Virus record (IMG/VR): IMGVR_UViG_3300032284_001989
Location: 1 to 21,393 of that record
Reading direction: 5' to 3' (one strand)
Source of the DNA: a virus
Length of the DNA: 21,393 nucleotides
The notes beneath the pieces are model-generated. The model was given only the letters and a program-made list of their open reading frames with translations, did no database searches and was not told the DNA's origin. Shown here piece by piece: positions 189-15,525 of this stretch. Each line of letters starts with the position of its first letter. Position 1 is the stretch's first letter. A program made the translations under genes and the position numbers.

Positions 189-2189
189 ATGAATGCTATA
201 GAACTAATTGCACAAGATTTATTCGACAAGGTACGCAGTCGATTCTCCAACCTACAAATGGGCGATGAATCAGGCGCTGTAACTATCGACCCAACAGAAG
301 CTCGATTCTTTGATTTTGATTTCGTTGTAGAAGGAAACAATCTAGGACGTGTGAGCGTAAGTATCAACGAGCTAGGCAATTTAAAATTATTCTACAGCCA
401 AGGAATAGTAGAAGACCACGATCCAGTTACGCAGGATTTTTGGTTTGATTTTTTAAGAGAAATGAGACAGTTTGCCAAGCGCAGATTGTTACGATTTGAT
501 ACTAGAGATATTACAAAAGGTAACCTAGAGAAAAACGATTTCCAATACCTAGCCACAAATGGATCCAAGGAAGATAACATGACAGAATCACAAATGTACG
601 GTAGTTCAAAAAGTAGCTATCGCCCGTTAGAAAAAACATTATTAATTATTCGCCATAATAACAAAGTCGGTGAAGACCGCGGAGCTCGCAGTCGTCCTAA
701 TAATATCAAATCTGTTTTCATTCAAAATGAAGCAGGCGAAAGATTCAAATATCCATTTGTTCATCTAGCAGGTGCTAAAGCTATGCAACGTCACGTTTCC
801 AATGGCGGTATGCCATATGACGAAGCAGGTAGTGCTATCATTAAAATGAGCGAAACTATCCGTGCATTAAGCACATTCAAACGTCAAGTTGGAAATGCAG
901 AACAGCTAACACAAGAAGCAGTTGGCATTGTTGATCGTGCAAGTAACAAGTTAGCTACCCTAAGAACAACTATCGAAAACTTATCCAAGCAAACACATTA
1001 TGAAGCATGGAGAGAGAATCTAGAGAACGCTGACCTTTCAGAGCAATCAGAACTAGATCCAGCAACACTAGAAGATTATAAATCTAAATTTACAATATCA
1101 AGTTACAAAGAAGACCTAACACAATACTTTCCGTTACTGTACAGTATCATGAGAGAAACAAGCGAAATTGATCTTGAAGATTATGTAGGCGAAGAAAAAG
1201 AAGAAATGTGTGATGATTGTGGCGAACCAGTTGATGACTGCGGATGCGATGATCATGAAGATACTAAAGAAGGCATTGAAGCTTTTGAAGCATGGGCTGA
1301 TAAAGTTGCTATGGAAGTGTTCGATGAAGAAGTCGATGAAGCAGGTAGCCCAGCACAACAAGCCGCTATTGCTATCAATATGAAAAAGCATCACCAGAAG
1401 CCTAAGAGCATGGAAGAAGGTGCTTATCAAGATCTAGGGCCAAATGGCAGAGAAATTTATGCCAAGGTTCAAGCATTGCGCGACAAAATCCGCAGTGGCG
1501 AAATTACGCCTAACGAAAAGATGCAAAGCGAATTTGATCAACTTTTAGTTGGCGCAGGTATGGATCCAGAATTTGCCGATAGAGAGTGGAATAGAATTAC
1601 AGGTAATGGTTCTACTCCTACATTAGATCCTAGCATGAGAAAATCTGCTCCTCCAATGACAGCTCCAACTGATAGCGATGAAGAAGATGATGATGATGCG
1701 AGTTTCCTACAGAAGTTGCGTATGCAGGCCAAAGGCGGATCTATCCAACAAGGTGCCGATACAGGCGGAGTAGATGAAGAAATGGAAGAAACCAATATCC
1801 ATCCTGCTCAGATTGCAGAATTAGTATTACCACACATTGATCGTGAAACAGGCGGTTGCCCATTAGGTGCAACAGGTGTCGGTATTAATATTAAGAAACA
1901 AACTGGTTCCGAAAGAGCCGGTAAGTTAGCAGAGAAATTAGTACACCACTTACAAGCCAAGTATCAAGCAGAAAGCGAATCCAGACAGCAAATGGAATCA
2001 ATGCGTAGACTTGCTGGTTTACCTCCATTAGTTGAAGCTGAGAAGAAAAAGACCATGAGTCGTGCGGCTAAAGGCAACGAGAAATACGGCAAAGACGGCA
2101 TGAAATCCCTAGCCAAAGCAGGTCGCGAAGGCGCAAGTGAAAAAACCTTAGATACTATTCGTAAAAAGCACGACAAGTATAAAGATTAA
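189..2189 (+). CDS. Large acidic conserved phage protein, probably virion-associated, function unknown
   Basis: This 666-residue protein is not assignable to a named T4 product. The N-terminal ~100 residues are a mixed alpha/beta region. The segment around residues 115-230 (NDFQYLAT, MYGSSKSSYRPL, ERFKYPFVHLAGAKAMQRHV) looks like a conserved marine T4-type phage domain. A cysteine cluster, C341, C344, C351 and C353 (CDDCGEPVDDCGC), lies in an acidic linker and could bind a metal. Further Asp/Glu runs occur near residues 496-503. The C-terminus is basic and helical, with SMRRLAGLPPLVEAEKKK followed by a Lys/Gly-rich tail. Alternating acidic and basic low-complexity regions suit a head-assembly or internal protein, but that is inference. 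The start follows a late-type element with no ribosome-binding site; a strong terminator follows the stop. Confidence 0.85.
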   Translation: MNAIELIAQDLFDKVRSRFSNLQMGDESGAVTIDPTEARFFDFDFVVEGNNLGRVSVSINELGNLKLFYSQGIVEDHDPVTQDFWFDFLREMRQFAKRRLLRFDTRDITKGNLEKNDFQYLATNGSKEDNMTESQMYGSSKSSYRPLEKTLLIIRHNNKVGEDRGARSRPNNIKSVFIQNEAGERFKYPFVHLAGAKAMQRHVSNGGMPYDEAGSAIIKMSETIRALSTFKRQVGNAEQLTQEAVGIVDRASNKLATLRTTIENLSKQTHYEAWRENLENADLSEQSELDPATLEDYKSKFTISSYKEDLTQYFPLLYSIMRETSEIDLEDYVGEEKEEMCDDCGEPVDDCGCDDHEDTKEGIEAFEAWADKVAMEVFDEEVDEAGSPAQQAAIAINMKKHHQKPKSMEEGAYQDLGPNGREIYAKVQALRDKIRSGEITPNEKMQSEFDQLLVGAGMDPEFADREWNRITGNGSTPTLDPSMRKSAPPMTAPTDSDEEDDDDASFLQKLRMQAKGGSIQQGADTGGVDEEMEETNIHPAQIAELVLPHIDRETGGCPLGATGVGINIKKQTGSERAGKLAEKLVHHLQAKYQAESESRQQMESMRRLAGLPPLVEAEKKKTMSRAAKGNEKYGKDGMKSLAKAGREGASEKTLDTIRKKHDKYKD

Positions 2190-2212
2190 ACCATTCTTTT
2201 AAAAGAGATCGA

Positions 2213-2237
2213 AAAAGGCAGAATATTTCTGCCTTTT
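2213..2237 (+). terminator. Strong intrinsic terminator after the 666-aa gene
   Basis: A perfect 11-bp inverted repeat, AAAAGGCAGAA and TTCTGCCTTTT, with the loop TAT, ends in a T run. It lies 24 bases after the stop at 2189. The A run on the left arm means it could also act on the opposite strand. It insulates the gp32 promoter from upstream transcription. Confidence 0.8.
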
Positions 2238-2240
2238 CTC

Positions 2241-2269
2241 TTGACGTGATAAATAAAGTAGTATACAAT
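2241..2269 (+). promoter_or_regulatory. Sigma-70-type promoter for gp32 with an overlapping late-type element
   Basis: TTGACG at 2241-2246 and TACAAT at 2264-2269 are separated by 17 bases, close to the bacterial housekeeping consensus. Within the spacer, GATAAATA at 2248-2255 resembles the T4 late element, so the gene may be read both early and late. The expected leader is about 70-90 bases and ends in the strong Shine-Dalgarno AAGGAG at 2337-2342. Confidence 0.6.
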
Positions 2270-2349
2270 TAAACGTATGCAGATTCTTAGATGTAGTTGC
2301 ATTTAAGAAACAGGCAAAACAAAGGCATAAACAATTAAGGAGATTTATT

Positions 2350-3366
2350 ATGGCAACTTTGGCAGAAATCCGCGCGAAACTTCAAGAAGCGCAACAAAAA
2401 TCAAGTGGTCAATCGACCGGTGGTGGCGACAACGCAATTTACCCACATTGGAATATCCCAGAAAACTCAGAAGCAGTAATCCGTTTCTTACCAGATGCAG
2501 ACGGAGATAACACATTCTTCTGGATCGAACGTGCAATGATCAAATTGCCATTCGCAGGCATCAAGGGAGAAACAAATTCTAAACCTGTAACAGTACAAGT
2601 ACCTTGCATGGAAATGTGGGGCGAAACCTGTCCAATTCTTACTGAGGTTCGTCCTTGGTTCAAGGATAAGAGTTTGGAAGATATGGGTCGTAAGTATTGG
2701 AAGAAGCGTAGTTATTTGTTCCAAGGCTTTGTTGTTGATAGCCCATTGAAGGAAGATAAGACTCCAGAAAATCCAATCCGTAGATTCATCATTGGTAGCC
2801 AGATTTTTAACATCGTTAAAGCGGCGTTGATGGATCCAGACATGGAAGATTTGCCAACAGACATCTTACGTGGTGTCGACTTCAAAATCACTAAAACATC
2901 AAAAGGTGGTTACGCTGACTACAGCACATCTAAGTATGCTCGTCGTGAACGTGCATTAGATGATGCAGAACAAGCGGCTCTCAAAGAGCATGGTTTGTTT
3001 AATCTCAAAGACTTCCTACCTAAGAAGCCAGGTGAAGTTGAACTCAAGGTCATGAAAGAAATGTTTGAAGCGTCAGTCGACGGTGAAGCATTTGACATGG
3101 AACGTTGGGGTCAATATTTCAAGCCAGCAGGTATGGGCGGTAGCGGTTCAGCTACAGGTTCAAATACACAAGCGGCAGCCCCAAAGGCAGCTCCTGTAGT
3201 CGGGGAAGATGATGACGCCCCTTTTGAGCCAGCGGCATCAGCACCCGCACCTCAAGTTGCTGAATCTGCTCCTGTGGAAGCGAAAGCTACACCAGCGGCT
3301 GGCAGTGAAGCAAGTGCAAGAGCACAAGACATTCTTGCAATGATCCGTAACCGTCAAAAACAATAA
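2350..3366 (+). CDS. 32: Single-stranded DNA-binding protein gp32
   Basis: This 338-residue protein coats single-stranded DNA at the fork and during recombination, and would work with UvsX, the gp41/gp61 primosome and the polymerase. The OB-fold core is recognisable at about residues 30-215: YPHWNIPENSEAVIRFLPD, the basic/aromatic KYWKKRSYLFQGFVV, then NPIRRFIIGSQIFN. The Cys/His zinc set of T4 gp32 is only partly kept: C86 and C94 are the only cysteines, so the canonical zinc site appears absent or altered. The T4 basic cooperativity tail (Lys-Arg-Lys near residue 3) is not obvious at the N-terminus. The C-terminal third is Ala/Pro/Gly-rich with a short acidic patch (GEDDDAPFEP) and ends in a non-acidic helix (DILAMIRNRQKQ). 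AAGGAG lies 7 bases before the ATG. Confidence 0.93.
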   Translation: MATLAEIRAKLQEAQQKSSGQSTGGGDNAIYPHWNIPENSEAVIRFLPDADGDNTFFWIERAMIKLPFAGIKGETNSKPVTVQVPCMEMWGETCPILTEVRPWFKDKSLEDMGRKYWKKRSYLFQGFVVDSPLKEDKTPENPIRRFIIGSQIFNIVKAALMDPDMEDLPTDILRGVDFKITKTSKGGYADYSTSKYARRERALDDAEQAALKEHGLFNLKDFLPKKPGEVELKVMKEMFEASVDGEAFDMERWGQYFKPAGMGGSGSATGSNTQAAAPKAAPVVGEDDDAPFEPAASAPAPQVAESAPVEAKATPAAGSEASARAQDILAMIRNRQKQ

Positions 3367-3380
3367 TTAGGAGATAGACT

Positions 3381-4451
3381 ATGGGAAAAGCCTTCGATGT
3401 TTCGAAGTTCCGTAAGTCTATCACTAAGTCAATTGACGGCTTAGGTATAGGCTTTAACGATCCAACAGACTGGATCTCAACGGGCAATTACGCACTCAAC
3501 TACCTTATTTCTGGTGACTTCTTTAAAGGAGTTCCACTAGGTAAAGTAACGGTATTTGCAGGCGAATCAGGTGCAGGTAAGAGTTATATCTGCTCAGGTA
3601 ATATTATTAAAGCCGCACAAGAACAGGGTATTTTTGTTGTCTTAATCGACACAGAAAATGCGTTGGATCAAGCGTGGTTAGAAGCATTAGGTGTTGATAT
3701 TTCAGAAGAAAAACTTTTGAAACTCAACATGGCGATGATTGATGATGTTGCTAAAACTATCAACGAGTTCATGAAAGAATACAAATCAATGCCAGACGAA
3801 GAACGTCCAAAGGTATTGTTTGTAATCGACTCACTTGGTATGTTGCTTACTCCGACTGATGTAAATCAGTTCGAAGCAGGTGACTTAAAAGGTGATATGG
3901 GCCGTAAACCTAAAGCACTTACAGCATTGGTTCGTAACTGTGTAAATCAGTTTGGTAACTATAATGTTGGACTTGTTTGTACTAATCATACATACGCATC
4001 ACAGGATATGTTTGATCCAGATGACAAGATTTCAGGTGGTCAAGGTTTCGTTTATGCAAGCTCAATCGTTGTTGCTATGAAAAAACTCAAACTCAAAGAG
4101 GATGAGGATGGTAATAAAGTAAGTGATGTATTAGGTATCCGTTCAGCGTGTAAGATTATGAAAACACGTTATGCTAAACCATTTGAAAGTGTACAAGTTA
4201 AGATTCCATATTCAACAGGTATGGCACCTACTTCCGGACTAGTTGACATGTTCGAAAAGATGGGTGTATTATCTAAGGTAGGGAATAAATTAGCATACAC
4301 AGACAAGGAGTCTGGAGAGATTATTGCCGAATTCCGTAAAAACTGGACCGAAGATAAGTTGCATATTATCATGAAACAGTGGGATACAAAGGCGGCAGAA
4401 TCTTTAACTACAACGACCGAACCGGTTGAAACAGAGGAAGAAGAAGCATAA
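3381..4451 (+). CDS. uvsX: UvsX RecA-like recombinase
   Basis: This 356-residue ATPase would form filaments on single-stranded DNA and drive strand exchange for recombination-dependent replication and repair. The Walker A motif GESGAGKS is at about residues 61-68 and the Walker B strand VLFVIDSLGML at about 145-155. The ISGGQGFVYASSIVVAMKK segment matches the L2/core region of T4-type UvsX. The protein ends in an acidic tail (VETEEEEA), as is common in this family. AGGAG at 3368-3372 precedes the ATG, only 14 bases after gp32, so the two are probably co-transcribed. The TAA stop overlaps the next ATG (TAATG). Confidence 0.95.
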   Translation: MGKAFDVSKFRKSITKSIDGLGIGFNDPTDWISTGNYALNYLISGDFFKGVPLGKVTVFAGESGAGKSYICSGNIIKAAQEQGIFVVLIDTENALDQAWLEALGVDISEEKLLKLNMAMIDDVAKTINEFMKEYKSMPDEERPKVLFVIDSLGMLLTPTDVNQFEAGDLKGDMGRKPKALTALVRNCVNQFGNYNVGLVCTNHTYASQDMFDPDDKISGGQGFVYASSIVVAMKKLKLKEDEDGNKVSDVLGIRSACKIMKTRYAKPFESVQVKIPYSTGMAPTSGLVDMFEKMGVLSKVGNKLAYTDKESGEIIAEFRKNWTEDKLHIIMKQWDTKAAESLTTTTEPVETEEEEA

Positions 4452-5159: not shown

Positions 5160-6389
5160 ATGTACGTAGAAGAACTAATACTCCGGTTAGCCTGCGAAGG
5201 CAAGTACCTGTTTGATACCCCACTAATGCCCCAAGTCGGTTGGGAATACAACTTTTTAAATTCAGTCGGCGTACAGATACATTTAGGAAACGCCCTCACA
5301 GAAAAGCAAGCTACCCAATGTTTAAAAATTATCAAGCGTTATAAAACACAATTAGAAGTATCGTTCAACACATCAATAGATTTAGACAATCCTGTTTACC
5401 AACAAGGATTTAGATTAGTCAGCCAGAATAAATCTGTACAGATAGCAGACTACAAAGGGTCTAATGCGATAAAAGTTAAATTTCCTTACGATGAACAATT
5501 AATCAAAAAAATACACGATTACATAAACAGCACCAATTGGCGGTCTGTGCAATGGAACACAGCATTGAAGGAATTAGTAGCCAAATGGGATCAAGATGAA
5601 AAGGCTTGGATTTTTTCTCTTAAAGAAGAAAACATTATATGGATTTCTCTAAATCTTGTTCCGTTGGGATTCGAGCCCGATACTAAATTTAAAGATTATG
5701 TTGCAGAAATAAACACTGTATTGGACAATATAAACGATCACGCTCCTATGGTTATTAAGGACGGCTCAACTTACGGATTTAAAAACGCATCTAGCAAAAT
5801 AGCGGCATACGATACTGATAACGTGATAGATTTTTTATTCTATGCCAAGCATCGGGGGATTACTACCTGGGACGAATCTGTTGATGAAGATTTTAAAAAT
5901 GCATCAGATTCTCCTGTCATTCGTAGTATCCTTAATAGTATCAACGCACTATACATCGACAGTAATACATACGAAATTGCAGAATTTAATGATGTTTTAA
6001 AATTCAGTGGTCCAACGCTAATCATTATCCCCGGCGGTAGTGAAATTGAGCACACAGTTAAATGGCATCAACACGCATTAGATTGCGGAATCACCAATGA
6101 TCAAATCGCGGTTTTATTTAGGACTCCTAATCAAAGTAGTGGCGGGTTTAATCAGTATGTACGTGAAAATAATTTAAACAATGAAATCAGTGAGAATACT
6201 AGGCTAGTATTTGTCAGTACAAAAATTCCTAAACCTTTGGTAAAATCCGGTATTAAAATCAACACAATTATTAACTTAGGTTACTATAGTCAGATACATT
6301 TTTCTATGAGTGTGCTCTTGCAATCACCACCTAATATAGTGTATTATAACAATAAGCAACCACACGGAGTAAACGTTGTCAACAGCTAA
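5160..6389 (+). CDS. Conserved 409-aa protein upstream of uvsW, possible degenerate helicase-like domain
   Basis: I do not recognise a named family. The N-terminal part has a GNALTEKQATQCLKIIKRYK segment, typical of a short helical module. The middle is mixed alpha/beta with NTALKELVAKWDQDEKAWIF. The C-terminal ~130 residues alternate hydrophobic strands and helices (PTLIIIPGG, DQIAVLFRT, NTRLVFVSTKI, INTIINLGY, PNIVYYNN) in an order resembling the second RecA-like domain of a superfamily 2 helicase. No Walker A or DExH motif is visible. It starts 2 bases after the previous stop and overlaps the UvsW start by 14 bases, so it is coupled to the UvsW gene. A non-catalytic helicase-fold partner is one possibility; this is inference. 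Confidence 0.88.
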   Translation: MYVEELILRLACEGKYLFDTPLMPQVGWEYNFLNSVGVQIHLGNALTEKQATQCLKIIKRYKTQLEVSFNTSIDLDNPVYQQGFRLVSQNKSVQIADYKGSNAIKVKFPYDEQLIKKIHDYINSTNWRSVQWNTALKELVAKWDQDEKAWIFSLKEENIIWISLNLVPLGFEPDTKFKDYVAEINTVLDNINDHAPMVIKDGSTYGFKNASSKIAAYDTDNVIDFLFYAKHRGITTWDESVDEDFKNASDSPVIRSILNSINALYIDSNTYEIAEFNDVLKFSGPTLIIIPGGSEIEHTVKWHQHALDCGITNDQIAVLFRTPNQSSGGFNQYVRENNLNNEISENTRLVFVSTKIPKPLVKSGIKINTIINLGYYSQIHFSMSVLLQSPPNIVYYNNKQPHGVNVVNS

Positions 6390-7827
6390 ACTAATAATAA
6401 AAGACGAAGTTAACGTAAAAATTGAAGGCTTAGATTTAGATACTAGGAAAGAACTAGTTAAAAAATTCAAGTACTTTGATCCAGCGGCAAGATACATGCC
6501 GGCGTACAAACTTGGACGTTGGGATGGTTGTACTACGTTTTTTGGACTAGGCGGAACTACGTATGTTAGCCTACTTGATCGCATCCTTCCACTGTTAGAG
6601 CAATGGGGGTATTATATCGAAGTCGAAGATCACAGAGTATCTGAGTCGCTAGCATTTAGTCAAGTAGGCGAGGACTATTGGGGCGATACTTGCTGGCCAG
6701 AAGGTCACATGATGGCTGGTCAGCCTATCAGATTGCGTGACTATCAGTGTGAGGTTATTAATAATTTCTTAGGTGCACCACAGGCTCTACAGGAAGTTGC
6801 TACAGGAGCAGGAAAAACTATTATCACAGCTACGCTGAGTAAGATATGCGAGAAGTATGGTAGGACTATGACTATCGTACCAAATAAAAGTCTTGTTGAG
6901 CAAACTGAAGAAGATTTTAGAAATTGCGGATTAGACGTGGGGGTGTACTACGGCGACAGGAAAGAATTAAACAAAACACATACTATTTGCACATGGCAGA
7001 GTTTAAACATTTTAGATAAGAAATCACACAACGATGATTCTGTATTGACACTTGCAGAATTTTTAGACAATGTTAAAACCATCATCATAGACGAAGTACA
7101 TCAAGCCAAAGCAGAAGTATTAAAAAAATTATTAACAGTTAATTTTGCTCATGCGCCGATTCGCTGGGGATTAACTGGAACAGTTCCTAAAGATGATTTA
7201 CAATTTGAAAGTATTCGATGCAGTTTAGGCGATGTGATTAATCGTGTATCTGCACATGATTTACAACAAAGAGGAGTATTAAGTGCTTGTCATGTTAATA
7301 TCATACAATCGCAAGAGCTTCGAGAATTTGAAAGTTACCCGGCAGAATTAAAGTATCTTGTTACTGACGAAGATCGCATGCTGTGGGTATCTAAGATGAT
7401 AAAAGGAATTGCAGACAGCGGAAATACGTTAGTCCTAGTTGACAGGATTGAGTCAGGAAAATTTTTAGTTAACGAACTTCCGGAGTCTGTTTTTATCAGC
7501 GGCGCTGTTAAAACTAAAGATAGAAAAGAAGAATATGATGAAATTAAAACCAGCGATAACAAGATTATTGTGGCGACTTATGGTGTGGCCGCTGTGGGTA
7601 TTAATATCCCTAGGATTTTTAATTTGGTTCTTTTGGAGCCCGGAAAGAGCTTTGTACGAGTTATACAAAGTATTGGACGAGGTATTCGAAAGGCAGAAGA
7701 TAAAGACTTTGTCCAGATCTGGGATGTCACAGCAAACACGAAATATGCTAAACGTCATCTCACTGAACGGAAACGGTTCTATAAAGAAGCGAAGTATCCG
7801 TTCGCTATTGAAAAGGTAAAATACTAA
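6376..7827 (+). CDS. uvsW: UvsW-type RNA-DNA / branch-migration helicase
   Basis: This 483-residue superfamily 2 helicase would process branched DNA and R-loops and switch replication from origin-dependent to recombination-dependent mode. The N-terminal domain (YKLGRWDGCTTFF) matches the UvsW double-stranded-DNA-binding module. Visible motifs include motif I ATGAGKT (142-148), motif II DEVH (239-242), motif III LTGT, and motif VI QSIGRGIR near the end. The start is TTG at 6376, inside the end of the previous gene. GGAG at 6365-6368 lies 7 bases upstream, and no in-frame ATG upstream would fit better. The TTG and 14-base overlap suggest translation tuned to that of the 409-aa gene. Confidence 0.93.
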   Translation: MSTAKLIIKDEVNVKIEGLDLDTRKELVKKFKYFDPAARYMPAYKLGRWDGCTTFFGLGGTTYVSLLDRILPLLEQWGYYIEVEDHRVSESLAFSQVGEDYWGDTCWPEGHMMAGQPIRLRDYQCEVINNFLGAPQALQEVATGAGKTIITATLSKICEKYGRTMTIVPNKSLVEQTEEDFRNCGLDVGVYYGDRKELNKTHTICTWQSLNILDKKSHNDDSVLTLAEFLDNVKTIIIDEVHQAKAEVLKKLLTVNFAHAPIRWGLTGTVPKDDLQFESIRCSLGDVINRVSAHDLQQRGVLSACHVNIIQSQELREFESYPAELKYLVTDEDRMLWVSKMIKGIADSGNTLVLVDRIESGKFLVNELPESVFISGAVKTKDRKEEYDEIKTSDNKIIVATYGVAAVGINIPRIFNLVLLEPGKSFVRVIQSIGRGIRKAEDKDFVQIWDVTANTKYAKRHLTERKRFYKEAKYPFAIEKVKY

Positions 7828-9075: not shown

Positions 9076-9248
9076 TGTGGACTGTCGGAGTTACAAAAGA
9101 CGATCGGGTATTTTTAGAAACTGACGATTCCACACACGATGTAAGATTGTATGTCAACGGCAATTTTTCATCTAAGGAACAAGAAATAAAATACGCAAGC
9201 GATCTAGCGAGAAAAATTAACGGTACATTGGATGATGCAACTAGCTGA
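9075..9248 (+). CDS. 57-aa conserved small protein between the gp62-like and zinc-finger-like genes
   Basis: The ATG at 9075 overlaps the preceding TAA as TAATG, and the frame runs to the TGA at 9246-9248, giving 57 residues (MWTVGVTKDDRVFLETDD at the start, ending NGTLDDATS). It overlaps the next gene by 17 bases. It fills what would otherwise be a 156-base gap in an operon with no gaps, and its composition is protein-like: a short beta region followed by one helix (KEQEIKYASDLARKING). No function is recognised. Confidence 0.72.
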   Translation: MWTVGVTKDDRVFLETDDSTHDVRLYVNGNFSSKEQEIKYASDLARKINGTLDDATS

Positions 9249-9927
9249 ACAGCCTTTCAACTGCACACATTGTGGTAAGAGTTTTATGAAAGAGAAAACT
9301 CTGTTTGCCCACATGTGTGAACCCAAGCGCAGGTTCATGCAGAAAGATGAAAAACGTGTTCAAACAGGATTCTATGCCTTTAATCAATTTTATAAAATCC
9401 GCCAAGGCTCGAAAATACAAAAGACCTACGACGAATTCTGTAAGAGTGCATACTATAATGCATTTGTTAAATTTGGCAGTTTCATGAATAATGTAAATCC
9501 GTTATATCCAGAAAAATTTATCGAATTTGTGATTAAAAGTGATGTTAAACTTGATCACTGGTGTAGAGATGAACTGTACGAAACATATCTGTATGAGATG
9601 TTGAAAATAGAGCCAGTAGAATCTGCGTGTCGTCGGACTATCACTACAATGATTGAATGGGGTGACACTAGCGGAGCACAATGGAATCATTATTTCAACT
9701 ATGTGAATTTTAATCGAGCAGTGCATGACATTAAAGATGGAAAAATCTCAGCGTGGGTCATTTTAAATTGTTCATCCGGCAAGAAAATGCTTGAAAGTTT
9801 TAATGACGAGCAACTTGACTTAATCAGTAAGTCGCTAGATATTCCGTATTGGATAAAACACTTCAAATCAAACAAAGAAGATGTTGCTGTAGTGAGAGAA
9901 ATCTGTGAAGGTTCAGGAATTGAGTAA
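9232..9927 (+). CDS. Conserved protein with an N-terminal C2HC/C2H2-like zinc finger
   Basis: This 231-residue protein opens with a zinc-finger-like motif: C11 and C14 (CTHC), then H27 and C29 (FAHMC), spaced C-x2-C-x12-H-x-C and followed by basic residues (EPKRR). The remainder is alpha-rich with many aromatics (FYAFNQFYKIRQGSK, HWCRDELYETYLYEML, WIKHFKSN), with no catalytic motif I recognise. The finger suggests nucleic-acid or protein binding. Two adjacent ATG codons (9232 and 9235) could start it; the gene overlaps its predecessor by 17 bases and its stop overlaps the next ATG as TAATG. Its position immediately before the DnaE-like gene makes a joint function worth considering. Confidence 0.88.
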   Translation: MMQLAEQPFNCTHCGKSFMKEKTLFAHMCEPKRRFMQKDEKRVQTGFYAFNQFYKIRQGSKIQKTYDEFCKSAYYNAFVKFGSFMNNVNPLYPEKFIEFVIKSDVKLDHWCRDELYETYLYEMLKIEPVESACRRTITTMIEWGDTSGAQWNHYFNYVNFNRAVHDIKDGKISAWVILNCSSGKKMLESFNDEQLDLISKSLDIPYWIKHFKSNKEDVAVVREICEGSGIE

Positions 9928-10514
9928 TGCCAGATATTGATATTGACTTTGCTAGTCGAGATTTAGTCTTAGATAAGATCAAACATGCTGTGGCCGCGAG
10001 GATCGACAGCAACGATGCTAAAAAACATAACACCGGTGTGTATTGTCATGAAATCCCAGTCAATCCTCTCACCGGACTAGCTAGCATTGATTATGACGAA
10101 GCCGAAAGTCGAGGATATTTTAAGATAGATTTCCTGAATGCTAGTGTCTATAATGACATCCGCGACGAAAATCATATCATTGAATTATTAAAGGTAGAAC
10201 CTTTGTGGGATTTGTTAGAACAGAAAGATTTTTGTGACATGATATTCCATGTTAACGGATATCATGAACTAGTTGCCACACTAAAACCAAAAAATATTGA
10301 ACAGTTAGCTATGTTTCTAGCCTTACTTAGACCGGGTAAAAAACATCTCATCCCAATATGCCAAGAAAAAGGCTTCGATGCGATCAAAGACGAAATTTGG
10401 GTGAAAAATGAGGATGCCTATACGTTTAAGAAGAGTCATGCTGTTGCGTATGCTCATGCTATCGTTGTACAAATGAATAGGATTTGTGAAAGTCTTAGCC
10501 AGTCCGGCGTTTAG
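9927..10514 (+). CDS. Miniature DnaE-like (family C DNA polymerase core) protein
   Basis: This 195-residue protein carries, in order, the hallmark motifs of bacterial Pol III alpha. PDIDIDF (residues 2-8) matches the palm motif whose alternating aspartates bind metal. NTGVY (35-39) sits where DnaE has its conserved Gly-rich step. GYFKIDFL (63-70) matches the GLVKFDFL motif holding the third catalytic Asp (D68). LLRPGK (133-138) matches the RPGP fingers motif, and FKKSHAVAYA (167-176) the FNKSHAAAY motif. DnaE is normally about 1,000-1,200 residues. Here the PHP exonuclease, thumb, beta-binding and OB domains are absent and the palm spacing is greatly shortened. It could be a small polymerase, a primer-handling factor or an inactive decoy. 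The start overlaps the previous stop (TAATG). Confidence 0.85.
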   Translation: MPDIDIDFASRDLVLDKIKHAVAARIDSNDAKKHNTGVYCHEIPVNPLTGLASIDYDEAESRGYFKIDFLNASVYNDIRDENHIIELLKVEPLWDLLEQKDFCDMIFHVNGYHELVATLKPKNIEQLAMFLALLRPGKKHLIPICQEKGFDAIKDEIWVKNEDAYTFKKSHAVAYAHAIVVQMNRICESLSQSGV

Positions 10515-10884
10515 GACTGCGTACTAGCTGTATCGATTTGCGTTTGATGCGTTTTTCTGCGATTTCGCTCAAATTTACCGTAGGACCAAAAATTATAGTA
10601 ATGTCTTTACTATTAAAAGTTTTGATATAGGGTCTAAAAGCAAACATTTCATTTTTTAAGAAAATATTAATTGGAATTTTACGATTTGACTCCCACCACC
10701 ATGTTTCGCCGAGCTCTAAAAAGTTAGATTTTTCAAATTCTGTGCGGATTATGCCAAAATCGTAAATGCTTGTAACATTAGAATCGTAGTTTATAACTAT
10801 CCCTACGTATTCGTCCTCGTTAGAACGTATGCAGGTGATAAACGGAAATTTTTCTTGAAATTCTTGGTCTTTGTTTGACTTCAT
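10495..10884 (-). CDS. Small minus-strand conserved phage protein
   Basis: This 129-residue protein has the cluster GETWWWESNRKIPINIFLK, followed by FRPYIKTF, and ends in a very basic stretch (AEKRIKRKSIQLVRSPKRR). The N-terminal half is beta-rich (FPFITCIRSNEDEYVGIVIN). The pattern resembles a small protein conserved in marine T4-type phages; function unknown, with nucleic-acid binding possible from the basic tail. AAGG lies just upstream of the ATG on the minus strand. It runs against the replication operon and its 3' end overlaps the DnaE-like gene by 20 bases, so antisense transcription of that gene's end is likely. Confidence 0.85.
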   Translation of the reverse strand: MKSNKDQEFQEKFPFITCIRSNEDEYVGIVINYDSNVTSIYDFGIIRTEFEKSNFLELGETWWWESNRKIPINIFLKNEMFAFRPYIKTFNSKDITIIFGPTVNLSEIAEKRIKRKSIQLVRSPKRRTG

Positions 10885-11821: not shown

Positions 11822-12823
11822 ATGAACCTGATTCAGGCAACCTTTTTAAATTTCTTACCTCCGAAAAGAAAACAGACACCAAGCGGCTGGATCAGCTTCA
11901 ATGCGCCCTGTTGTGTACACAACGGCGACAGAGCAGACAAACGGCAACGTGGTGGAGTAAAACTAAGCGGAGATGACGGGTTTCAGTTCCACTGCTTCAA
12001 TTGTGGTTTCAAAGCCGGTTGGATGCCTGGAAAATTGCTCAGTAAAAATACCAAAAGTCTCATGCGTTGGTTAGGCATGCCAGACGACGAAGTTAGCAAA
12101 CTTTCACTGGAAGCACTCAAGAACAAGGATGAATTAGACAAAACACCTATACCACTAAATTTCGCATTAGAACCGAAAAATTTGCCAGAAAATTGCCTTT
12201 CCATTGAAACTTGGATCGATGAAGGTTGTGAGGATCCTGATTTTTTAAATGTCATTGGTTACATCCTTGACAGAGGTATGCAACTTGATTGGTACGACTG
12301 GATGTGGTGTCCTGAAGCAGGATATAAGGATCGTGTCATTGTGCCATTTTTCCACGAAAATGTGGTCGTAGGCTGGACAGCCAGAAAAATCAAGGATGGC
12401 AAACCAAAATATTTGACATCGAGTCAACCAGGCTATGTTTTTAATTTAGGCGCACAGGTACACGACAGGAAATTTGTCATTGTCGTCGAAGGACAGTTTG
12501 ATGCTATCGCGATAGATGGCGTGGCGATCGGTCATAATGAGCCAAATGATGCCCAAATTATGAGAATTAACTCATTGGGTCGAGAAGTTATCGTAGTTCC
12601 AGACAATGACAAGCCAGGAGCAAAATTAATCAAGGCGGCCATCGATAATCGTTGGTCAGTGAGCTTGCCAGACTGGGGACCAGATGTAAAAGACGTTGCA
12701 GATGCAGTGAAGAAATTTGGCAGGATTTACACATTTTTCACGATTTTGAAGTATAGAGAGTCGGGAGAGATAAAAATTAAACTACTCAAAAAACAATTAG
12801 AAAACAAACATGACGACAGATAA
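11822..12823 (+). CDS. 61: DNA primase gp61
   Basis: This 333-residue DnaG-type primase would make lagging-strand primers in complex with gp41. The N-terminal zinc-binding domain has C30/C31, H33 and then C58 and C61 (HCFNC). The TOPRIM part is clear: VVEGQFDAIA with E223 and VVPDNDKPGA with D261 and D263, the metal-binding triad expected of primases. Length is close to T4 gp61. No Shine-Dalgarno is visible; AAAATA at 11811-11816 lies 5 bases before the ATG, a poor variant of the TAAATA element seen elsewhere. The 3' end overlaps the gp41 start by 14 bases. Confidence 0.9.
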   Translation: MNLIQATFLNFLPPKRKQTPSGWISFNAPCCVHNGDRADKRQRGGVKLSGDDGFQFHCFNCGFKAGWMPGKLLSKNTKSLMRWLGMPDDEVSKLSLEALKNKDELDKTPIPLNFALEPKNLPENCLSIETWIDEGCEDPDFLNVIGYILDRGMQLDWYDWMWCPEAGYKDRVIVPFFHENVVVGWTARKIKDGKPKYLTSSQPGYVFNLGAQVHDRKFVIVVEGQFDAIAIDGVAIGHNEPNDAQIMRINSLGREVIVVPDNDKPGAKLIKAAIDNRWSVSLPDWGPDVKDVADAVKKFGRIYTFFTILKYRESGEIKIKLLKKQLENKHDDR

Positions 12824-14246
12824 TATACCAAACTACAGCGCCGAGATACAGAGGTTATATCTCGAAATGTTCATGAGTGATGCTGAGACATTTGTGCGTT
12901 GTCAGAACATATTTGACCCCGAAAATTTCGACAGAAAACTCCAGGATGTTGCGGCATTTATCAATGCCTATGTGAATGAATATAAAATTATGCCAGAGGC
13001 ACAGATCGTCAATGCGTCTTGCGGCACAGACCTAAATCCGGTAGAATTACCCAAGGAAAACTATGATTGGTTGATGGCAGAATTTGAGACATTTTCACGC
13101 CATAAAGCACTTGAAAGGGCGATTTTAAAATCAGCTGATTTGTTGGACAAAGGCGATTATGGTCCAGTAGAAAAGATGATTAAAGACGCTGTACAAATCA
13201 GTCTACAGCGTGACATGGGTACAGATTACTTTGAAGATCCTAGACAGCGACTTGAAGCATTGAAGAACTCAAATGGGCAAATTAGCACTGGTTGGCCGTC
13301 GATCGATAAGAAATTGTATGGTGGATTTAATCGAGGTGAATTAAACATTTGGTGTGCGGCATCAGGAGGCGGTAAGAGTTTGTTCCTTGCAAACTTGGGC
13401 TGTAACTGGGCATTGAACGGATTAAACGTCTTGTATCTAACATTTGAGTTGAGCGAAAATTTAGTGGCTATGCGTATGGATAGTATGATGACTGATGTAC
13501 CGACTCGTGAAATTTTTAAGAATCTCGAAGACGTCGAACTCAAGGTTAGGATGCTAGGCAAGAAAGCAGGAAGCATACAAATCAAGTATATGCCTAGTGG
13601 TAAGACTGCGAATGATATCCGTGCATATCTAAAAGAATATCAAGTGAAAAAAGGATGCAAACCTGACATTTTATTGATCGACTATTTGGACTTGATGATG
13701 CCGATGTCAGTTAAAGTTAGTCCAAGCGATCTTTTCGTCAAAGACAAATATGTGTCAGAAGAACTGCGTAACTTGGCTATGGAAACGCAATCGATTGTGT
13801 GTACAGCTAGTCAGTTAAATCGTGCGGCAGTGGAAGAAATTGAGTTTGATCACAGTCATATTTCAGGTGGCTTATCTAAGATCCAAACAGCAGATAATGT
13901 GATTGGTATTTTTACAAGTCGTGCAATGAAGGAACGTGGACGCTATCAAATCCAGTTTATGAAGACTCGTTCTAGTAGCGGAGTTGGACAAAAAGTTGAC
14001 TTGGAATTTGACGTTGATACTCTGAGAATTAAAGACTTAGGTGACGAGGAAAGCGGCGACGGATTCAAGAAACCCGGAGCATCGATTTATGATAGCTTGA
14101 AAAAATCAAGCACAGTTGTAAATCAAGATACAGGTGAAATTAAATCTGATCCTACTGAAGGAATTCCTGTGAGCAAAATCAAAGGTGTAACAGGTAATTC
14201 AAAGATTAGAGAACTACTGGCAAATATCAATCCAGAAAAAGATTAG
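12810..14246 (+). CDS. 41: Replicative DNA helicase gp41 (DnaB-like)
   Basis: This 478-residue RecA-fold hexameric helicase unwinds DNA ahead of the fork and activates gp61. The N-terminal ~130 residues are helical. The core shows Walker A ASGGGKS (184-190), the catalytic Glu strand VLYLTFELSENL, Walker B DILLIDYLDLM and the conserved TASQLNRAA and HISGGLSKIQTADNVIGIF segments of the DnaB/gp41 family. The C-terminal ~70 residues are a flexible Lys/Ser-rich tail with KIRELLANI at the end. The ATG lies within the last codons of gp61, implying coupled expression of the primosome pair. The TAG stop overlaps the stop of the convergent gene on the other strand. Confidence 0.95.
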   Translation: MTTDNIPNYSAEIQRLYLEMFMSDAETFVRCQNIFDPENFDRKLQDVAAFINAYVNEYKIMPEAQIVNASCGTDLNPVELPKENYDWLMAEFETFSRHKALERAILKSADLLDKGDYGPVEKMIKDAVQISLQRDMGTDYFEDPRQRLEALKNSNGQISTGWPSIDKKLYGGFNRGELNIWCAASGGGKSLFLANLGCNWALNGLNVLYLTFELSENLVAMRMDSMMTDVPTREIFKNLEDVELKVRMLGKKAGSIQIKYMPSGKTANDIRAYLKEYQVKKGCKPDILLIDYLDLMMPMSVKVSPSDLFVKDKYVSEELRNLAMETQSIVCTASQLNRAAVEEIEFDHSHISGGLSKIQTADNVIGIFTSRAMKERGRYQIQFMKTRSSSGVGQKVDLEFDVDTLRIKDLGDEESGDGFKKPGASIYDSLKKSSTVVNQDTGEIKSDPTEGIPVSKIKGVTGNSKIRELLANINPEKD

Positions 14247-14803
14247 AACAAGCTAGATATTTTTTGATTAACACAGTGACTGATCGCACGTTGCCACTGT
14301 TCTTCGCCTGTGCCGCTTAGGCAAACATCAATCGAGGCAGGCGCAGTAAGCCAACGATGATCCGGAGTCCACGGACTTATACCGCTCATTTCTCCGTCCA
14401 GTTGTCCTGCACTCCAAGCCGCTAGTCCAATACCAGGTCGCCAAATAGCAGGTCCATCATTTCCGGCTATAGCAGCCAAGATACTGATATCTCCAGTGAT
14501 ACCCAGATCGGGTGTAATTTGTAAGGTGCTCGGACTGGACCAATCCATCGTGTGTACTACGTGTACCCTGGCAGGCTCAACAGGCCCGCCTACGTAGACA
14601 TTCGAAAATCCATTGTACTCGATCCCAGCGGCCTGCATGACTGTTTTCATAGTTACAGCATTAGCTTCTTTATTCACTACTACTCCCCATGCACCATTAA
14701 CTCCGTGTTGCGCCAGCAGGATAACCGCTTTGGAGAAGTGGGGGCTGTTGTTTTTCGGTTGGGAAACTAGTACATTTCCCATGAGTGAATTAAAACTGGT
14801 CAT
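14243..14803 (-). CDS. YqgE/AlgH family (DUF179) protein
   Basis: This 186-residue protein matches the YqgE/AlgH (UPF0301) pattern: GNVLVSQPKNNSPHFSKAVILL, the GAWGVVVNKEA step, VYVGGPVEPARVHVVHT, and the near-signature GLAAWSAGQLDGEMSG followed by W. The length is that of bacterial YqgE (about 185). Bacterial members are cytosolic proteins of poorly known role; AlgH was named as a regulator of alginate synthesis. I see no truncation. It lies alone on the minus strand and converges on gp41 with overlapping stop codons. A CGTAAATA element ends 5 bases before the ATG and no ribosome-binding site is present. Confidence 0.9.
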   Translation of the reverse strand: MTSFNSLMGNVLVSQPKNNSPHFSKAVILLAQHGVNGAWGVVVNKEANAVTMKTVMQAAGIEYNGFSNVYVGGPVEPARVHVVHTMDWSSPSTLQITPDLGITGDISILAAIAGNDGPAIWRPGIGLAAWSAGQLDGEMSGISPWTPDHRWLTAPASIDVCLSGTGEEQWQRAISHCVNQKISSLF

Positions 14804-14832: not shown

Positions 14833-15525
14833 ATGTACATCTTTGAGTATAATCCGCCGATCGAACTGCATGATAAGCTAAACCCTGTTCTATGGAACGA
14901 CGAGGAAATTAGACGTCAAATCCAGGTCAAACTGCTTCAAATCGCCAAGGAATTCTATCATTTTTTGTCGGTTTCGGCGCCGATCGAAGACGTTTTGATA
15001 ACCGGGTCTCAATCCAACTATAACTACACAAACTGGTCTGATATAGACCTACATATCGTATTAGATTACGATAACATCAGTTGTGAAGGAGAAGCCAAAA
15101 ATCTACTGGATGCCAAACGTAAACTGTGGAAACGCGAGCACGATATCAAACTCAAAGGTATTCCGGTAGAGTGCTACGCTGAAGATCTAAATCAACCAGC
15201 AGTTACAGCCAGCTACAGTCTAATACACAACAAGTGGGTCAAACGCCCAAGCGCACCTATAAAAAACTACGACGTCGAAGGTGTTAAAGAATTGTACGGC
15301 ATGTGGAAAACAGTGATCAAAGATGCTATCAAATTCCGTGAAGCAGGACTGCTAAAACGTGTCAAAGAACTACTGGCTACATTTAGGAGAAAGAGTCTTG
15401 CTAAAGATGGTGAATTTGGTAACGGCAATCTAGCGTTTAAAGCACTGAGAAATTCTGGATGGATAGAACGATTAATGAAAGCAGTTGATGATCTAGAAGA
15501 TCAGGAACTGAGTTTAAAGGATTAA
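14833..15525 (+). CDS. Nucleotidyltransferase-fold protein
   Basis: This 230-residue protein has the pol-beta-type nucleotidyltransferase signature GSQSNYNYTNWSDIDLHIV: G58-S59 followed by D70 and D72, with a candidate third carboxylate at E113 in GIPVECYAED. The C-terminal ~90 residues are helical and basic (FREAGLLKRVKELLATFRRK). Such domains in the family transfer a nucleotide to protein, RNA or small molecules, and occur in toxin-antitoxin, repair and modification systems. The target cannot be read from sequence. It stands alone on the plus strand, divergent from the YqgE/AlgH gene, and is closed by an intrinsic terminator, so it is a single-gene unit. Confidence 0.88.
   Translation: MYIFEYNPPIELHDKLNPVLWNDEEIRRQIQVKLLQIAKEFYHFLSVSAPIEDVLITGSQSNYNYTNWSDIDLHIVLDYDNISCEGEAKNLLDAKRKLWKREHDIKLKGIPVECYAEDLNQPAVTASYSLIHNKWVKRPSAPIKNYDVEGVKELYGMWKTVIKDAIKFREAGLLKRVKELLATFRRKSLAKDGEFGNGNLAFKALRNSGWIERLMKAVDDLEDQELSLKD

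Follow-up and report, generated by a model that had tools for sequence, protein, structure and literature searches.

What can a 195-residue protein with the motifs of a family C DNA polymerase contribute to a phage of the T4 type, which would be expected to replicate with a family B polymerase? The question is raised by the ORF at 9927-10514 (+) of IMG/VR record IMGVR_UViG_3300032284_001989, a viral DNA fragment analyzed here over its whole 21,393 nucleotides (the window). The ORF starts with ATG and overlaps the stop codon of the upstream ORF in the sequence TAATG, as expected within an operon. The surroundings had been described in an earlier note as a T4-type replication cluster, and this description holds: UvsX, UvsW, a gp61-type primase, and a gp41-type helicase are all encoded in the window, and the ORF lies between UvsW and the primase/gp41 pair. 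The context features are as follows.

2350-3366 (+), single-strand DNA-binding protein (phrog_1192)
3381-4451 (+), UvsX-like recombinase
6376-7827 (+), UvsW-like helicase
11822-12823 (+), Toprim primase (gp61 type)
12810-14246 (+), DnaB-type helicase (gp41 type)

The protein itself, referred to below as the C-unit, and its motifs are located as follows.

9927-10514 (+), C-unit, 195 aa, predicted metal-binding palm half and fingers core of a split minimal Pol III alpha (phrog_11778)
9930-9950 (+), PDIDIDF with the catalytic D5 and D7 (E. coli D401 and D403), N-terminal end of the C-unit, at the split
10122-10130 (+), K66-I-D68, the third catalytic Asp (E. coli D555) and the preceding Lys
10206-10340 (+), fingers segment W94...R135-P136-x-K138, with profile positions 93-137 aligned to E. 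coli alpha 596-641
10425-10454 (+), FKKSHAVAYA, fingers motif (FNKSHSAAYA in DnaE)

All of the family C motifs that the earlier note had named are in place, namely PDIDIDF (residues 2-8), NTGVY (35-39), GYFKIDFL (63-70), WDLLEQKDF...FHVNG (94-111), LLRPGK (133-138), and FKKSHAVAYA (167-176), and their occurrence is far above chance. The proposed homology to Pol III alpha is borne out as well. In PHROG, phrog_11778 ("DNA polymerase", 197 aa) matches residues 3-189 of the 195-residue C-unit with E=1e-62; a second match, with E=5e-8, is to phrog_405, the Pol III alpha family of 1190 aa. The general libraries gave weak matches: Pfam DNA_pol3_finger with E=0.004 and NCBIfam polc (TIGR00594) with E=0.0015, the latter at 16.7 bits and hence below the family cut-off of 434. 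A profile was needed for the PDB, where phmmer found no match for the single protein; with a profile of 95 relatives, nearly all matches were Pol III alpha chains (best E=8e-4), and MPDIDIDF, KxDFL, the finger segment, and FxKSHAxxY aligned in order and in register with Pol III alpha. In both the PHROG and the PDB searches, family C polymerases were favored over any unrelated fold. From its sequence, the C-unit belongs to phrog_11778, the C-terminal family of the split minimal Pol III alpha.

Relatives of the C-unit are widespread. They were found by tblastn in 65 phage records, with an identity of 35-46% among those listed, including Rak2/121Q/GAP32-like and PA5oct-like phages, Atu_ph07, Phosso, and others, and more than 550 IMG/VR stretches code for one. 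Among 125 non-redundant relatives (<90% identity), the catalytic residues D5, D7, and D68 are invariant; D3, D5, and D7 are each present in 124/124 sequences (one gap), and K66, D68, R135, P136, K168, H171, and Y175 in 125/125, while G37 and K138 are fully or almost fully invariant. Together with the register with DnaE, this upholds the claim that D5, D7, and D68 are the catalytic aspartates. The median dN/dS is 0.09 (57 close pairs), and the length ranges from 181 to 216 aa (158 units). The two flanking genes are conserved as well.

9232-9927 (+), zinc finger protein, C2H2-type, phrog_11058, upstream neighbor
10495-10884 (-), convergent neighbor phrog_11637, its tail overlapping the C-unit of the window by 20 bp

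Where the respective flank is present, phrog_11058 lies upstream of the C-unit in 117/118 loci, and phrog_11637 lies tail to tail with it in 147/147, usually with an overlap of 4-26 bp. Because of the invariant residues and the low dN/dS, we conclude that the C-unit is a constrained protein. A length of one sixth of the usual and a sequence split across two places might be expected of a degenerate remnant of a captured dnaE, and yet purifying selection, fixed lengths, an invariant core, and fixed neighbors on both sides speak so strongly against decay that this reading is refuted by the selection and conservation data and retains hardly any probability. As for the neighbors themselves, phrog_11058 is perhaps a replication accessory protein. 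The phrog_11637 protein (120-129 aa, with invariant WWW and GP) is encoded in the orientation opposite to that of the surrounding cluster, and it has no Pfam family above the cut-off and no relative in the PDB.

The predicted fold leads to the same family. An AlphaFold2 model of the C-unit, with the profile alignment of the 95 relatives as input, reached a pLDDT of 93.1 and a pTM of 0.81. In VIA-align, ranks 1-14 were all DnaE or PolC, covering 175-190 of the 195 residues. The top match was 3e0d (Z 10.0, 3.4 A, Taq 461-841), and E. coli 2hnh followed over residues 399-784 (Z 9.7), these two alignments spanning 187-190 of the 195 residues; the first structure from outside family C scored only Z 2.4, and no unrelated fold matched better. 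The scores of Foldseek were weak (best E 3.8e-4, TM 0.58) because the template has long inserts. The correspondence of the active-site aspartates rests on the range of the structural alignment and the sequence register.

The model also makes clear what the C-unit lacks. The earlier note held that the PHP, thumb, beta-binding, and OB domains are lost, and this was confirmed: no PHP match was found with Pfam, and nearly all of the 195 residues fall in the palm/fingers alignment. D7 and D68 are separated by 61 residues, compared with about 150 in DnaE, and the thumb is missing. From P136 to F167 there are 31 residues compared with about 115 in DnaE, so that about 85 fingers residues are missing before FKKSHAVAYA. 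The HhH, beta-binding, and OB parts are absent, too. The DnaE palm also requires a GxGRGS loop just ahead of PDxDIDF. This loop (GxGRGSS, GxGxGS) is not in the C-unit chain, which begins at PDIDIDF. The idea of one small protein with the catalytic core is therefore to be revised: the aspartate motifs are present in the C-unit, but the core is not whole, as the GxGRGSS half is on a second gene.

This second gene was located by PF07733 as a separate gene of 169-177 aa elsewhere in the genomes of Phosso, GAP32, and Paride. Its family is phrog_11127, and its product is referred to as the N-unit. The N-unit model (pLDDT 92.5) matched family C polymerases exclusively at structural ranks 1-16, with 5lew as the best match (Z 12.3, 2.0 A over 98 residues) and E. 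coli 2hnh 272-393 also among them. In the profile alignments, the counterpart of the N-unit is E. coli alpha 321-392, and MPDIDIDF is where the C-unit begins. G-R-G-S-S is present in 74/74 distinct N-units, with R138, G139, S140, and S141 each in 74/74, and the terminal F-L-K/R is the exact stop of 67 of the 74. In 20/20 pairs from one and the same genome, the last residues of the N-unit are ...EFLK/R, give or take a few positions, and the partner C-unit opens with (P/T/S)DIDIDF, preceded by a few residues at most. The coincidence of these ends and starts means that the two proteins abut at one point inside the catalytic domain. To judge from these alignments, the C-unit is the C-terminal half of the palm, the cut lying after the GxGRGSS loop for dNTP binding and before the metal motif PDIDIDF. 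No intein was found at the seam in the N- and C-units of the jumbo phages. A search for a fused form with the joined N- and C-units of Phosso yielded no record in which at least 80% of the query was covered in one place; the matches from actinophages and others were ordinary DnaE-like proteins. The split in Microbacterium phage Chivey was rejected as an instance of the same arrangement, since it falls after PHP, a different place.

The two halves are inherited together. Among 20 genome-sized contigs or phages (220 kb or more), the C-unit is present in 20/20, both halves in 19/20, and a family B polymerase in 20/20, the last as expected for phages of the T4 type. Likewise, of the 60 phage records listed for the C-unit, 59 contain an N-unit, the exception being a 109-kb record. 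The distance between the two genes is about 33 kb in GAP32 and 44 kb in Paride. Across the 20 genomes, the N and C distances correlate with a Mantel r of 0.65 (reached by 0 of 5000 permutations), which is a sign of co-inheritance and not of contact in itself, as shared ancestry alone suffices to explain it. In the window, which is a fragment of only 21 kb, there is no N-unit and no family B polymerase among the annotated ORFs; by analogy with the relatives, the phage probably has an N-unit elsewhere in its genome.

The single genome-sized exception, the 222-kb contig G036 (L209), has a C-unit and no detectable N-unit; the contig may be incomplete, which would account for the absence. It could also be taken to mean that the active site is completed by a chain other than phrog_11127, such as the host DnaE or another family C protein of the phage. 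A candidate for the latter exists, because in marine contigs whose C-unit shares 47-58% identity with that of the window, a gene for a one-chain family C polymerase without PHP lies near the C-unit.

IMGVR_UViG_3300020419_000923 (L176), 2034-3674 (-), one-chain PHP-less family C polymerase, 546 aa

The one-chain polymerase matches PF07733 with E=1.5e-40 and the finger domain with 5e-16, and its gene is located downstream of gp41. Both it and the C-unit are present in 6/6 long contigs tested (48-101 kb, partial), and 180 matched IMG/VR stretches encode a relative of it. The one-chain protein, however, owns a complete palm, and phrog_11127 is present in all genome-sized cases except G036, so completion by another chain is very unlikely.

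The same arrangement has been predicted before. Iyer et al. (2021; PMC7824862) described that the jumbo phages of group 2.2 pair a family B polymerase with a minimal split Pol III alpha, one half being an N-terminal protein that binds NTP and the other a C-terminal protein that binds metal and template, with the two encoded by distant genes. They suggested that the split enzyme works alongside the family B polymerase, either to make one of the strands or in repair, and that its deep origin is primordial. The protein of the window is a further member of this kind: it shares the C-unit of the group 2.2 system (phrog_11127 plus phrog_11778) by family match, and its relatives share the companion family B polymerase. 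We found no basic difference; the window is a metagenomic fragment whose C-unit has 35-46% identity to those of cultured phages. What is new beyond PMC7824862 is the exact seam, the invariant residues, the co-occurrence counts, the fold matches of both halves, and the fixed neighbors. In a marine survey (PMC9123017), PF07733 marks the cluster PGC_A (51.9% of phages), a marker which may well correspond to the N-unit, and two "DNA polymerase III subunits" have been reported in Sinorhizobium phage AP-J-162 (PMC11242549). Papers on PaBG, RsoM2USA, and MIJ3 were set aside, as they concern other polymerases. No experimental study of the split minimal Pol III was found in the literature.

Compared with DnaE and PolC, the C-unit has the same palm Asp triad, K-x-D-F-L, fingers motifs, and fold over almost its whole length, but it has no PHP, thumb, beta-binding, or OB domain, part of the fingers is gone, and the GSS loop is on another chain. 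A closer parallel is Tenacibaculum phage Larrie (ON950054), in which a two-gene Pol III alpha is cut within PF07733 at the same place, between FLN and PDIDSDF (PF07733 positions 3-98 in the N-part and 100-260 in the C-part). It differs from the split of the jumbo phages in that the genes are adjacent (L174 5146-8726), PHP and HhH are kept, and the C-part has 676 aa. About 55 extra residues after FLN in Larrie look intein-like by eye; no Pfam intein match was found in them. In the Synechocystis-type split DnaE, Pol III alpha also comes from two distant genes, and its parts are spliced to one chain by a split intein. The jumbo phage units are similar in the distance of the genes and differ in having a seam without intein sequence.

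With the homology of both halves, their shared cut, co-occurrence, invariant catalytic residues, purifying selection, and fold observed in this study, we infer that the N- and C-units pair physically and are catalytic, and we suggest that together they probably form a two-gene minimal polymerase of the Pol III alpha type. In such an enzyme, the C-unit would supply the three metal-binding aspartates (D5, D7, and D68), K66, and the fingers residues R135, K168, H171, and Y175, and the separate N-subunit would supply the GxGRGSS loop, which in DnaE and PolC holds the incoming dNTP. The halves would meet at the palm cut as a heterodimer and form a single active site that adds nucleotides to a primed template.

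Two other uses of such halves have to be weighed. The small, part-length copy of a host-type enzyme could be a non-catalytic mimic that acts on the host Pol III or clamp loader, either blocking or recruiting it. Such a mimic needs neither catalytic Asp and Lys residues that are invariant in about 125 sequences, nor a dN/dS of 0.09, nor a co-inherited missing half; it was rejected on conservation and selection and is, in our view, quite improbable. Alternatively, the halves could be an active nucleotidyltransferase of the Pol beta fold that copies no template and adds, for example, to DNA ends, RNA, or protein. The active-site residues are kept while the template-gripping thumb and much of the fingers are lost, as seen in the shortened spacings D7-D68 (61 vs. 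about 150 in DnaE) and P136-F167 (31 vs. about 115), which would suit such an activity. However, R135, P136, K168, H171, and Y175 are invariant to the same degree as the aspartates, and the genes are situated among those of the primase, the helicase, UvsW, and the clamp loader, so that non-templated transfer is unlikely, if less so than mimicry.

As for the role of the putative two-chain polymerase, most likely it makes short patches and does not serve as the main replicase, because it is without PHP, thumb, clamp-binding, and OB domains and always occurs in a genome with a family B polymerase. Processive synthesis is doubtful, because the thumb and about 85 fingers residues are missing. It would make short templated products alongside the family B replicase, either extending the primers of the neighboring primase or filling gaps in recombination-dependent replication. 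The C-unit gene is on the side of the primase; downstream of the N-unit gene, a GroES-like gene is found in 52/53 loci and the gp44 clamp loader in 51/53. Because of these locations, which are an association only, primer extension or gap filling is the role that we favor, as a tentative proposal well below an even chance. The fullest form of the proposal, a working two-chain DNA polymerase of about 365 residues, cut in the palm, forming part of the core replication machinery in a large group of giant T4-like phages, and passing short products to the family B replicase, is in our estimate slightly short of even.

If this is true, no smaller family C polymerase would be known, and the enzyme would serve as a model for the first assembly of Pol III or for its dismantling. 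Family C polymerases have been known as enzymes of very large size; how small they can be would be seen from a conserved form in two pieces with about 365 residues in all. Such a form would let the palm be dismantled and rebuilt in vitro, and it would explain the presence of a second polymerase in giant phages that already have a family B replicase. Now that seam, invariant residues, and constant neighbors have been defined, the published prediction can be put directly to the test at the bench.

Some other genes around the two halves are worth mentioning. The GroES-like gene (Cpn10 match), of which L177 3815-4213 (-) is an example, is kept between the N-unit and gp44. Between UvsX and UvsW, the window has a 409-aa ORF without family match (5160-6389, +), which is present in just 3 of the 14 related loci that include this flank. 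Farther downstream, a 230-aa protein of phrog_36119 (14833-15525, +) has weak matches to nucleotidyltransferases of the Pol beta type, and an AlgH-like (DUF179) protein (14243-14803, -) is encoded within the replication region with E=1e-30.
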